The notes under the pieces: generated by a model
Database searches by the model: none
Told to the model about the DNA's origin: nothing
What the model saw: the letters and a program-made list of their open reading frames with translations, nothing else
Assembly (NCBI RefSeq): GCF_937873765.1
Contig: NZ_CALMZC010000051.1
Coordinates: 1 to 64,000, forward strand
Reading direction: 5' to 3'
Source: an uncultured Thiothrix sp.
GTDB taxonomy: Bacteria; Pseudomonadota; Gammaproteobacteria; Thiotrichales; Thiotrichaceae
Length of the DNA stretch: 64,000 nucleotides
Program-made: the position numbers and the translations under genes
In this document: positions 1-10,504 of the stretch, one piece after another
Layout: the number at the start of each line of letters is the position of its first letter
Numbering within the stretch: the first letter of the stretch is position 1

Positions 1-1739
1 TCATTGGCGAATTCATTAATCAGATGTTTTTCAACTCTTCTGGTGCATGACCCAAGATTTCTAAACATTTCATGCTCTAAAGTAGTTAAGCCTAGCAAAT
101 TACTTAGTTTTCTATTTGCTCCCATCATATATGCAGCAAGCTTTTGAGCTTGGCTACTTTCATGCAAAAAACTTAAGCGGCGGGTAAAAGAAAGTGCCAC
201 TCTTTCACTAGCTCGCACGATAAGTCGCTCATAGAAAAATTCTGCAGGTAAAGGCTCTAGCATCTGTTTAGCTAAGGTATTAGCAATAGCATGGGGTAAT
301 AATGCTCGCCATTGACCACGCTGTTGCAACAGTCCACGTCGTTTTAACTCTACTAAATACCTTGAAAAGGTCTGTATACTAACTTCAGCAAAGTTAGCTA
401 ATAATGCTAACTCTCCATCTTCTGCAAAGTTTTCTCCGTCAAATGAATACAACAAACTTGCTACTTGAGCACATTTTAGTAGCTCATCATTTTCTTGGTG
501 CTTCTGATGAAAAAGGCGCGTGAATAAGGCTACATCACGCAATTGTGCAAGCTCACCACCACGTTCAGCGGTATCCGCAACTGCCAAAGCAACACGTGCG
601 TTACCATCAGAAAACTCGACTATCCGATCTACATCAGTTACAGATAAAAGCCCGTAACACTTTTTAAGTAGTTTTTTAATAACATCTGGCGAGGCACTTT
701 CTAAGCGATAACAACTAGTGCTTTCTGGAATGTCATCACGAATATCATATTCAATTGTGATTAGCCTCAATCGATTGCTTTGACGCTCAATGATATTGGT
801 AAGGCTTGCATGTGTGTCTGAGCCGCAATTGTCAACAATGACCACTAAGTCAGCATTTTGGGCTTGCAAACTTTCCAGCATTTGTTGAGGTGTTGGGTTT
901 GGCTCATCTGCTAGGTCTGTATAGATTACATTTTCTGGGGTTGGATATGCATATTCAGGGCAAACCTTAGCATCAAACAAGGCTTGTACTAGACGCGTTT
1001 TGCCTACACCCGATAAGCCAACTAAACGAATGGAGCTAGGTTGCTTTAGTTCTCCGCGCAACTGAGCAATAGCATGGGTTATATCAAAGCAATTAGTATT
1101 CGAATACGGTGTAAAAACTCTTGCCTTGTTATCAATGAAATATTCAGAAGTACTATCCTCTTCACGATAAGCCCAAGCGCCGTAAGGTTTCCACGCTTTA
1201 AATGGCTTGCAAATTTTATCTCTTAACCAAGTAGCGATAGAGGGATGATTCTCAACCCAATCAGCAATGCGGCGCGAGTCATAAAAATCCACCAATATAT
1301 GTTGTTCAAGATTATGCTTTTTGAGACATTCACGCATTGTCTCAATGCGCTTCTGTAAAAGCTTATCAGTTATATAGTCTTTCGTGGATACTATGATGTA
1401 AGCACCATTCACCGCTCTGAGTTCAGCAATAATCTCCCGAATTTTTCCCTTTGGCTCCATTTCTTCATAAATCTTGGCTGGTCTGTAATTCTCAGCCTTA
1501 ACTTGAAAAATAGTATTTTCTGCTTTGATAAAACCTTTTTTGAAAATTAATTCAGAATTAGCAAGTCGTATGTCGACCCCACCATCAGTGGCTGTATGTT
1601 CGCCACCCCATGTTACATGGACTTCAGATATACTTTGACTACGTAATTCTGCACGACATAATCTAGCTATAAGATTTTCTGCATCTCTACTGCTAAGTTC
1701 TTGAATAAATGAATGATCAATATCGAATATGATTGTCAT
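1..1739 (-). CDS. Nuclease-STAND NTPase fusion (Avs-like), partial
   Basis: An open frame runs from an ATG at 1739 to the window edge (579 codons, no stop). Residues about 1-110 look like a PD-(D/E)XK (Mrr/Cap4-like) nuclease: GGVD ending at D56, then an FQVK motif with Q79 and K81. A P-loop ATPase follows: Walker A GLSGVGKT at 241-248 and a Walker B-like VVIVDN with D303, then a winged-helix-like helical region (about 420-500). This order matches STAND-type antiviral proteins such as Avs, in which the C-terminal part senses a phage protein. That sensor lies outside the window. The gene starts 40 nt after the TatD-family stop on the same strand, without a clear ribosome binding site. Domain order is seen; the antiviral role is inferred. 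Confidence 0.75.
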   Translation of the reverse strand, partial: MTIIFDIDHSFIQELSSRDAENLIARLCRAELRSQSISEVHVTWGGEHTATDGGVDIRLANSELIFKKGFIKAENTIFQVKAENYRPAKIYEEMEPKGKIREIIAELRAVNGAYIIVSTKDYITDKLLQKRIETMRECLKKHNLEQHILVDFYDSRRIADWVENHPSIATWLRDKICKPFKAWKPYGAWAYREEDSTSEYFIDNKARVFTPYSNTNCFDITHAIAQLRGELKQPSSIRLVGLSGVGKTRLVQALFDAKVCPEYAYPTPENVIYTDLADEPNPTPQQMLESLQAQNADLVVIVDNCGSDTHASLTNIIERQSNRLRLITIEYDIRDDIPESTSCYRLESASPDVIKKLLKKCYGLLSVTDVDRIVEFSDGNARVALAVADTAERGGELAQLRDVALFTRLFHQKHQENDELLKCAQVASLLYSFDGENFAEDGELALLANFAEVSIQTFSRYLVELKRRGLLQQRGQWRALLPHAIANTLAKQMLEPLPAEFFYERLIVRASERVALSFTRRLSFLHESSQAQKLAAYMMGANRKLSNLLGLTTLEHEMFRNLGSCTRRVEKHLINEFAN

Positions 1740-1779: not shown

Positions 1780-2649
1780 TTAAGAATGCTCCCAAAACAC
1801 CCGCAAACTATTCCCCCAAACTTGCGGTAATAAAGCTTCCACCGCTAAGCCTTTTACCCGCGCCACTTGTTCAGCAATAAATGGTAAGTATTTCGGTTCA
1901 TTCTTCTGTCCGCGATAGGGTACTGGGGTTAAATAGGGTGCATCGGTTTCAAGCAGAATCTGCTCAACGGGTGTTAGGCTAATAATTTCGCGCACATTCT
2001 CAGCCGGTTTGAAGGTGCTAATCCCATTAAAGCCTAAACAGAAACCCTCCGTTAAACAGTATTCAGCGAGTACTTGGCTAGAGGTGAAACTATGAATCAC
2101 ACCGCGTTGTTTCATTAATCCAACAAAATTTTGCAGAATAGCTTGGGTGTCTTCGTCGGCTTCACGGGTGTGAATCACTACAGGCAGATTCAAATCAATG
2201 GCGATTTGCAATTGGCTTTCAAATACTTGGCGTTGCACCGCACGGTCAGAGTGCTCATAGTAGTAATCCAGACCAATTTCGCCAATCGCAAGCATTTTCG
2301 GGTGTTGGGCATTGGTGCGAATTTGTACGTCGACAGCGGGTGAGTATTCTTTCGCATCGTGCGGGTGAATCCCTTGAGTACCCCAAACTTGTTCGTGGCT
2401 TTGGGCGAGTTGCATGACTTTTTCGAGGTTGTCGGGTGACACGCCAATAGTAATAATTCGTTCAATATTCACCGCTTTGGCTGACTCCAACGCAGCTTGC
2501 AAAGCCTCACTTTCGAGGTAATCTAGGTGGCAGTGGGTTTCGATAATCGGGTGATGAAACACGGGGATTGCAGGTTTTTTCGACATTTCAATAGGTTCAT
2601 TCGCGTAACATGACGCAGCGTATTGTAAAGCTTCAGGCTGAGATGGCAA
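1780..2649 (-). CDS. TatD-family metal-dependent hydrolase
   Basis: TIM-barrel hydrolase of the TatD family, which includes metal-dependent 3'-5' exonucleases acting on DNA ends. Visible motifs are ETHCHLD (paired metal-binding His), a GEIGLDYY segment with the bridging Glu, VVIHTREAD, and a C-terminal LLETDAPYLTP. The metal-binding HxH motif normally lies about five residues from the N-terminus, but this frame has a longer leader. The upstream TTG at 2649 has an AAGG-like ribosome binding site; the ATG at 2586 (MSKKPAIP) is the alternative and gives a more usual length but lacks a good site. Which paralogue of E. coli (TatD, YcfH, YjjV) it matches cannot be settled by eye. Confidence 0.9.
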   Translation of the reverse strand: MPSQPEALQYAASCYANEPIEMSKKPAIPVFHHPIIETHCHLDYLESEALQAALESAKAVNIERIITIGVSPDNLEKVMQLAQSHEQVWGTQGIHPHDAKEYSPAVDVQIRTNAQHPKMLAIGEIGLDYYYEHSDRAVQRQVFESQLQIAIDLNLPVVIHTREADEDTQAILQNFVGLMKQRGVIHSFTSSQVLAEYCLTEGFCLGFNGISTFKPAENVREIISLTPVEQILLETDAPYLTPVPYRGQKNEPKYLPFIAEQVARVKGLAVEALLPQVWGNSLRVFWEHS

Positions 2650-7810: not shown

Positions 7811-10504
7811 ATGACTAAAACTAAAAAACGAATGTCTTGTTTGGGTGTTTGGTACTTAGGGGGGGGCTTACTTCTTTTTGCCTACCAAGCAAGGGGGGAG
7901 GATTGCTCCGCGCTTGGCGGCATCGTTAATACTTATGCACCTGTAGGCAATATAGCCGGTAGCGTAGTAACGATCGGAGCAACCAGTGGTGCAGCGGCAA
8001 CCTTTGCGGTGGGGGATCATGTCGTTTTGCTGCAAATGACTGGTATTCCACCTGTACAAACGGGTAGCAACATGGGCAAGTATGAGTTACGTACCGTTAC
8101 TGCGGTAAGCGGTAGTAGCATCACTCTGTCTTCCATTACCAACACTTACTCTTTTAGTACTGAGAAAGTGCAATTGGTGCGTGCGCCGAATTGTACAACT
8201 GGCACAGTGAGTGCGGCCGTCACGGCCAAAGCGTGGGACGGCATCACAGGGGGTGTGGTTGCTCTTAAAGGTGGCACACTAACCCTCAATGCCGATATTG
8301 ATGCTACAGGTTCAGGTTTTTCTCAAGCTAACCCACCTACCACTACCGTAACCACAAGCCTGAGTACAGGACAAGGCAGTACAGATGGTAGAGGCGGGAA
8401 TGCTCATGCCACGTTTGGGGGATTTGGAGGGGGAGGCATGGGTGGCGGTGGTGGGACTGGAGATAGCACCACAGGAAGAGGAGGTGCCAATGGTGGGAGC
8501 GTCTACACCACAGCAAATGGGTACAATCAAGTCGCTCCTTGGACACCCGGACACTATACGGCTGGTGTGGGAGGGGGCGGTGGCATCTTTGGTGGTGGTG
8601 GTGGTGGTGGTGGCGGTGCCTATGTCAATAGAAGTGGTGGTGGCGGCGGTGGTGGCGTCAATGGTGGAGGAAGTGGTGGAAGTGCTGTAATTTCTGGTTT
8701 TACTGCGGCAGGTGGAGCTGGTGGTGGCGAGGGAGGAAGTGGAAAAGATGGGAGCTATGTCTTAACCCCAGCTGACGGCGACATAGGCGGTGGTGGCGGC
8801 GGCGGCGGTGTTAAAGGGATTGGAAATGGTGTCAATGCTGCTTGTAGTGACAGTTGTGGCGGCAGTGGTGGTGGTGGATATGGCGGTGGCGGTGGGGCTG
8901 CTTCTGGATGGTCGGGCGGCGACGACAGCTACGGCGGTGGCGGCGGCGGGTCGTGGGCTGGGGGCGGTGTGTCAGGTAAAGGAGGATCTAACTATCCGCA
9001 AACGGCTGGTGCTGGAAACAACCCCGTTTCTATTCCGATCACTAATATCAATCATTACCTGAATACCACACAACCACGTTTGATGATGGGGGGCGCTGGT
9101 GGCAATGCTCGTTGCCAAACAGAAGGTTTGGGCGGGGGTATAATCATACTAGAATTTGCTAGTGTTGCAGGTAACAATTTTGGAATAAAAGCTAACGGCG
9201 AATCAAAAGGTCTTCCACCTAATTGTGTGACTTCAAATCTCAATTTTGGTACTGGTGGCGCAGGTGGGGGAGCTGGTGGACAAATGTCTCTTAATATCCA
9301 AAATTTTAGCTCTGCTACACTCTTAGAGGCTAAGGGCGGTAAAGGTGGAGACGCTAATAATGCGGCAACAGCTCACGGTGGGGTGAGTGGTGCAGGTGGG
9401 GGCGGCGGCGGTATTTGGGTCTATGGCAGCAGTACTTCTACTAATACAGGGGGGCAAACGGTAACTATTGCCAATACCAACCTCAATAGTGCTGGCGCTA
9501 TAGCTGGAGGACTGGCAGGAGCAGATACCAATAACCCCAAAAACAGTCTGCGCACTGGCACTGGCGGCGCTGGTGGGAATGGCTTCATTGTGATGAGTTC
9601 AGATCCCCCTGCTTGGCCAGCTTGCACGCCACCAAGTAGCATAACAGCCTCTGCCATAGAGGCTACGTGTAGTGGTGATACGGCTAATGCAGATGGGATG
9701 CTTACTTTAAGTGGTGCTTTTACAGGATTACGCTATCAGTATAGCACAAGCGCTATGTTTACCCCCCCGGGTACACCTGCAGCTATCACTGCCATTCCAT
9801 TAGATGGCAAAGTGGCTACGACACTCCCAAATCCAACAGGCACAACAGAAACTTATACCGTGCGCATTTATGATGCGATAGGCGATACTTGTTATACCGA
9901 TGTAAATGCTACCTTAAATCAAGTAAAGTGTGTGCTGCCCACAGGTTCTCTAAGTGTTCAAAAGTTAGTATCAGGTGCACCCAGTGGCTTTGTAAGTCCA
10001 AACTTCTCGTTGGTAGTAGATTGCTCGGACAATAGTTTTGATCAGACTTTAACCTTAGCCAATGGTGCAAGCCAAACGATTGCTAATATTCCCGTGGGCA
10101 CGACTTGCACCGTGAGCGAACCCAACCAACCTGCTGCACCCACTGGATATAAATACACAGCAGCGGTCGTCAACCCGAGTGGAGCACAAACCATCACTGC
10201 TGGGGCTACGGCCAGCGTGAGCGTGACCAATCCTTTAAATCCCTTAGAAGTAGATATTGCTTTAAGTAAAACGGTGGATAAGACCACTGTTCACTGGGGA
10301 GCTACGGTGACCTACACTTTGACCGCTACCAATTATGGTGCTGATCCTGCTAGTGGGGTAGTGGTTACTGACAAACTACCTAGTAGTTTGAGCTATGTCT
10401 CACACAGTGGGGGTAGTTATGATCCAGTCATTGGCGAATGGGTGATTGGCTCGTTAGGAGTCGGGGAAACTAAAACCCTAACTCTGACCGCGACAGTGCA
10501 ATAA
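7811..10504 (+). CDS. Glycine-rich surface protein with DUF5979/DUF11 domains
   Basis: An 897-residue secreted protein. The signal peptide (residues 1-29) is followed by a beta-rich N-terminal domain (about 30-185), a very glycine-rich region (about 186-600, with runs of up to eight Gly), a short domain with paired cysteines, a DUF5979-like segment starting near GSLSVQKLVSG (about 710-815) and a final DUF11 repeat (about 818-897). These last two are beta-sandwich adhesin modules. The protein ends right after the DUF11 unit with no anchor or sorting signal, so the C-terminus may be shortened. A G8 tract (7859-7866) lies in the signal-peptide codons. It is probably an extracellular matrix, sheath or adhesin component; this is inferred. 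Confidence 0.8.
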   Translation: MTKTKKRMSCLGVWYLGGGLLLFAYQARGEDCSALGGIVNTYAPVGNIAGSVVTIGATSGAAATFAVGDHVVLLQMTGIPPVQTGSNMGKYELRTVTAVSGSSITLSSITNTYSFSTEKVQLVRAPNCTTGTVSAAVTAKAWDGITGGVVALKGGTLTLNADIDATGSGFSQANPPTTTVTTSLSTGQGSTDGRGGNAHATFGGFGGGGMGGGGGTGDSTTGRGGANGGSVYTTANGYNQVAPWTPGHYTAGVGGGGGIFGGGGGGGGGAYVNRSGGGGGGGVNGGGSGGSAVISGFTAAGGAGGGEGGSGKDGSYVLTPADGDIGGGGGGGGVKGIGNGVNAACSDSCGGSGGGGYGGGGGAASGWSGGDDSYGGGGGGSWAGGGVSGKGGSNYPQTAGAGNNPVSIPITNINHYLNTTQPRLMMGGAGGNARCQTEGLGGGIIILEFASVAGNNFGIKANGESKGLPPNCVTSNLNFGTGGAGGGAGGQMSLNIQNFSSATLLEAKGGKGGDANNAATAHGGVSGAGGGGGGIWVYGSSTSTNTGGQTVTIANTNLNSAGAIAGGLAGADTNNPKNSLRTGTGGAGGNGFIVMSSDPPAWPACTPPSSITASAIEATCSGDTANADGMLTLSGAFTGLRYQYSTSAMFTPPGTPAAITAIPLDGKVATTLPNPTGTTETYTVRIYDAIGDTCYTDVNATLNQVKCVLPTGSLSVQKLVSGAPSGFVSPNFSLVVDCSDNSFDQTLTLANGASQTIANIPVGTTCTVSEPNQPAAPTGYKYTAAVVNPSGAQTITAGATASVSVTNPLNPLEVDIALSKTVDKTTVHWGATVTYTLTATNYGADPASGVVVTDKLPSSLSYVSHSGGSYDPVIGEWVIGSLGVGETKTLTLTATVQ
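7859..7866 (+). repeat. G8 homopolymer in signal-peptide codons
   Basis: Eight consecutive G bases encode Gly17-Gly19 of the glycine-rich surface protein. A one-base slip would put the whole gene out of frame, as in known phase-variable contingency loci. Confidence 0.95.

Follow-up and report, generated by a model that had tools for sequence, protein, structure and literature searches.

A PD-Lambda-4_A antiphage gene interrupted by an IS1-family element in an uncultured Thiothrix sp.

The first lines of this DNA raise the question of what gene runs off their edge and where the rest of it lies. The window, i.e., the whole stretch of 64,000 nucleotides analysed, opens with the first base of its contig (C51), and a minus-strand open reading frame (ORF) at 3-1739 is still open at that edge. 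A sequence-only reading had taken it for a nuclease-STAND fusion resembling an antiviral Avs protein, cut by the window and with its sensor beyond position 1. The ORF and all residues named in that reading are real. The gene is another member of PD-Lambda-4_A, a known antiphage family, with a PADLOC match that covers 560 residues and is far past chance; the antiviral role proposed earlier is supported by this family. The features at the broken end are as follows.

53..1739, minus strand: 5' half of the PD-Lambda-4_A gene (PADLOC profile PDLC03991, positions 3-562 of 1283, E = 3.5e-149)
1..52, plus strand: terminal 52 bases of an IS1-family element, with the last 15 residues of InsB and the stop at 3-50 (translation IGEFINQMFFNSSGA, then stop)
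53..61, no strand: 9-bp target-site duplication CAAGATTTC (GAAATCTTG on the gene strand), repeated exactly at C12:53-61

The native part of the gene starts at an ATG (1739-1737) and occupies window 53-1739, that is, codons 1-562, ending in ...MFRNL; the last ~16 codons of the ORF are antisense IS sequence, foreign to the gene. It is truncated here, as had been read, but the cut is a contig end inside the IS1-family element, and window 1-52 is not part of the gene. When the genome was searched with the same model, the rest of the gene was found on another contig, C12, at about 52-2211, matching PDLC03991 at about 559-1283 of 1283 (E = 2e-69). The sensor half is located there instead of beyond position 1 of the gene's own contig. 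The C half is open across 719 codons, and neither half contains a stop or frameshift. The two halves were searched and compared separately, with the flanks left unjoined rather than assembled into a repaired gene.

Because the profile positions of the two halves meet (562 for the N half and 559 for the C half), the 9-bp duplication is present at both ends, and the TatD gene flanking the break on C51 and the asparagine synthase gene on C12 are direct neighbours in the sister genome G373, which makes three independent lines of evidence, the halves were once one gene, split by the IS1-family element after codon 562. The chance of such a duplication match is ~5e-6 for this pair. The element was assigned to the IS1 family by its InsB end, its terminal repeats, its target duplications and the InsA and DDE_Tnp_IS1 Pfam domains of a related element in the sister species G305. 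Its target duplications are mostly 8 bp and sometimes 9 bp, with 8-bp duplications at a further 12 pairs of its ends. A 25-base stretch of the window-side IS end has 25 exact copies, all at contig ends; for a stretch of the opposite end, the genome has 33. With at least 25-33 copies, the assembly is broken at nearly every one, and IS ends make up window 1-52 and 57 other contig ends. The core of the element was not found in the assembly, and therefore the continuous insertion is not read directly. Since both halves lack stops and frameshifts, the insertion is probably recent; since it separates the nuclease and the switch from the sensor, the gene is probably dead and the system very probably inactive in this genome. 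The culture may include cells without the insertion.

The interrupted N half carries an effector-like domain, an NTPase and a winged-helix-like segment, with the following features.

1215..1739, minus strand: PD-(D/E)XK/Mrr-like nuclease domain, residues 1-175 (E31, D52, D56, Q79 and K81 invariant or nearly so)
1572..1574, minus strand: D56, putative metal-binding Asp (invariant in 21 sequences)
1497..1505, minus strand: Q79-V80-K81, putative catalytic Q-x-K (Q79 and K81 invariant in 21 sequences)
660..1112, minus strand: STAND/NLR-type NTPase core, residues 210-360 (sub-cut-off Pfam AAA_16/AAA_22/nSTAND6; Foldseek)
996..1019, minus strand: Walker A GLSGVGKT, residues 241-248 (invariant in 21 aligned relatives)
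831..833, minus strand: Walker B Asp303, in VDNC (invariant in 21 aligned relatives)
300..413, minus strand: winged-helix-like segment after the NTPase, residues 443-480 (modelled as helix-helix-strand-strand; weak HTH matches)

The predicted structure of this half (pLDDT 86.5) shows an alpha/beta domain, the NTPase and then the winged-helix-like segment. In the alpha/beta domain, D56 sits just ahead of strand 57-60 and Q79-K81 closes strand 75-81, and this modelled order of elements fits PD-(D/E)XK. The Pfam model Mrr_cat matched the domain weakly (E = 0.018, below the Pfam cut-off). Profile comparison did not support membership in Mrr: hhalign of the domain against a bona fide Mrr gave no significant result. 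The nuclease assignment is thus the weakest part of the reading, and its basis is the motif, the topology and the sub-threshold Mrr_cat match. For the NTPase, the Pfam similarity of the N half to AAA/STAND models was weak and below the cut-offs, and the weak HTH matches to the winged-helix region were obtained in this protein and one relative. A Foldseek search of the PDB with the N half placed NOD2 (E 1e-7) and the Avs4-portal complex (E 1.3e-7, 604 columns) at the top, with NRC3, CED-4, Apaf-1, RuvB and other AAA+ proteins among further matches; TM-scores of the structural matches are low because domain arrangements differ.

The C half was modelled via a Pelagicoccus relative, L099, to which it is 30% identical. 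The L099 model is all helical (pLDDT 82.4), and its top 50 PDB matches are mainly HEAT/ARM solenoids, e.g., transportin, importin and CAND1, with no Avs protein among these 50. The sensor half is therefore predicted to be a HEAT/ARM-like solenoid, and the comparison of the C-terminal part with Avs1-4 proposed in the sequence-only reading gave no Avs likeness at this level. Across 20 relatives, identity to the sensor half is mostly 22-30% vs 34-54% for the N half, as would be expected for a sensor under diversifying pressure.

PD-lambda-4 is an antiphage system from a functional selection in E. coli (Vassallo et al. 2022, PMC9519451), and phage protection was reported for the systems of that selection (PMC9519451). 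The E. coli member scores 2524 bits against PDLC03991, with PD-Lambda-4_B adjacent. This second component adjoins A in E. coli and six other enterobacterial loci (seven altogether) and in none of the other relatives examined; the whole present genome gave no match to PD-Lambda-4_B at E ≤ 0.001. A gene downstream of the Rhizobium homologue was considered as B and found to be unrelated to it. Genome records hold 29 loci of relatives, in Pelagicoccus, alpha-, beta- and gammaproteobacteria and others; relatives also occur in 42 plasmid records, half of them conjugative, and a related gene is present in 175 of 5,426 complete E. coli genomes. Intact relatives are ~1,260-1,290 residues long, and D56, Q79, K81, G241-T248 and D303 are invariant in the alignment of 21. 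Four family copies (L122, L123, L124 and L127) are interrupted by a frameshift or in-frame stop; either decay or an error in sequencing may lie behind this.

The layout of effector, STAND NTPase and repeat sensor, with exchangeable effectors, that marks STAND/NLR proteins is present in PD-Lambda-4_A. Three plasmid relatives (L091, L135 and L136) are of similar length and retain the GLSGVGKT NTPase, yet their first domain is a DUF676 serine hydrolase, with a GHSLG nucleophile motif in two of the three; DUF676 in place of the nuclease ahead of the same NTPase amounts to effector exchange as in other STAND proteins. The plasmid of L091 is conjugative and also carries mcr-10.1, ~7 kb away from L091. 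Another plasmid relative, L134 (3509-7255) of Moraxella osloensis, has a different N-terminal domain (with QSK) and three large unannotated genes around it, and the distant relatives L083, L084, L085 and L088 start with an HTH_37 domain ahead of the NTPase. We tentatively propose, at slightly less than an even chance, that PD-Lambda-4_A forms its own bacterial NLR clade apart from Avs, in which a HEAT/ARM-like sensor and a common switch are combined with either of two interchangeable effectors, nuclease or serine hydrolase. In most bacteria it would work as a lone gene, B being an accessory added later in enterobacteria.

The locus itself was compared with sister genomes by means of the upstream neighbour, a housekeeping gene that is conserved among them and anchors the synteny test.

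1780..2649, minus strand: TatD-family DNase, upstream neighbour (Pfam TatD_DNase, E = 6.5e-73)

In the present genome, the interval from TatD to the asparagine synthase gene contains the defence gene, a HipA/HipB-like pair and one small gene that is conserved. On the TatD side, G305 has that small gene together with an AraC-like regulator and a HipB-like gene, and in G373 the interval is empty. The HipA/HipB-like pair (L011 2232-3763, on C12) is convergent to the defence gene, and the G305 locus keeps the HipB-like gene only. For the HipA neighbour the only match was to a weak candidate model, PDC-M03A, and it was taken as an ordinary HipA-type gene. The PD-Lambda-4_A model matches one of nine genomes of the genus and 12 of 369 genomes of the class, the present one included. 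G+C is 0.40 in the N half and 0.38 in the C half vs 0.45 in the whole window. This sparse distribution and low G+C fit horizontal acquisition of the defence gene. Elsewhere in the window, at 7811-10504 on the plus strand, an 897-residue ORF has a long glycine-rich stretch followed by repeats resembling surface-protein (DUF11-type) domains.

Three other explanations were weighed against the family assignment and the split. Part of the Avs-like architecture read from the letters holds, i.e., a nuclease-like domain with a STAND NTPase and fold matches to NOD2 and Avs4, while membership in Avs1-4 does not. Were the gene a true Avs (AVAST type 1-4) protein, recognising terminase or portal via a C-terminal TPR sensor, the identical nuclease-STAND-helical repeat order and the second-best structural match to Avs4-portal would be accounted for. 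Yet all 21 relatives match PD-Lambda-4_A and none matches an Avs profile in PADLOC at E ≤ 1, no solved Avs chain in the PDB matches in sequence at E ≤ 1, and the modelled sensor appears HEAT/ARM-like, not TPR. On the absent profile and PDB sequence matches, Avs1-4 membership was rejected as an assignment, and we regard this explanation as very improbable; that the protein works like Avs is nevertheless a reasonable suggestion from its modelled fold.

Slightly less probable again is that a truncated protein with nuclease, NTPase and winged helix but no sensor is expressed with a function of its own, e.g., constitutive or dominant-negative. With no stop in its 562 codons, the half could be read on into the antisense frame of the IS, but no relative with a stable truncated form was found, the intact ones having the full length given above, and a nuclease without its sensor should be either silent or harmful. 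The least probable of the three is an assembly artefact, in which contigs that were misjoined, or broken at an unrelated repeat, conceal an intact gene. The missing IS core and contigs that end at IS copies throughout would suit this explanation; against it, IS ends with the matching 9-bp duplication sit exactly at both broken ends, and the 12 further end pairs with 8-bp duplications are typical of genuine IS1-type insertions.

We therefore return to an interrupted receptor gene. STAND proteins act as switches built from an N-terminal effector, an NTPase in the centre and a sensor at the C terminus (PMC12931631). It is likely that the gene encoded an antiphage NLR/STAND receptor composed of a putative PD-(D/E)XK (Mrr-like) nuclease, an NTPase with a winged helix and a HEAT/ARM-like solenoid, interrupted by an IS1-family element after codon 562. 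In the intact protein, the fast-evolving solenoid would bind some component of the phage, the NTPase would exchange its nucleotide and so free the receptor from auto-inhibition, the receptor would oligomerise, and the clustered nuclease domains would cut DNA and end the infection. What the computation shows is the family with its domains and invariant residues, the fold class, the split with its target duplication, and the synteny; ligand binding, oligomerisation, DNA cleavage and loss of function are inferred. In the literature searched, PD-lambda-4 appears by that name in passing mentions only, and its mechanism seems to be undescribed so far.

Altogether, the locus is well resolved and ordinary in kind: it adds one member, broken by an IS1-family element, to a known antiphage family. 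From the evidence a testable model can be drawn up, in which an NLR-like receptor combines a helical sensor with a nuclease effector and effectors are swapped; the evidence also suggests that B lies outside the core PD-lambda-4 system. The locus further illustrates the loss of an acquired defence gene: of nine species in the genus one has it, its G+C is below that of its surroundings, and it is IS1-broken with halves that are still open.

Among known systems, Mrr-type restriction endonucleases (PF04471) share the D...QxK motif and strand order with the N-terminal domain, and Mrr_cat matches weakly; the difference is that this match falls below the Pfam cut-off and that the profile comparison with genuine Mrr failed. 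The NTPase/winged-helix fold is common to PD-Lambda-4_A and the NLRs NOD2, NRC2/3/4, CED-4 and Apaf-1, whereas animal and plant NLRs differ from it in that its effector is nuclease-like and its sensor is neither an LRR nor a WD40 domain. With Avs4 (PDB 8dgf), the second-best fold match of the N half, it has the order nuclease-like domain, STAND NTPase and helical repeat in common; as in Avs1-4, the STAND NTPase is central, with Walker A and B invariant, but no sequence-level relation to Avs1-4 was found and the C half is modelled like HEAT/ARM solenoids, not TPR. The closest system is PD-lambda-4 itself. In E. coli, component B adjoins A, whereas here B is absent and the gene is IS1-broken; as for component A, both halves match the model along its whole length, and the N half is ~35% identical to the E. 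coli protein.
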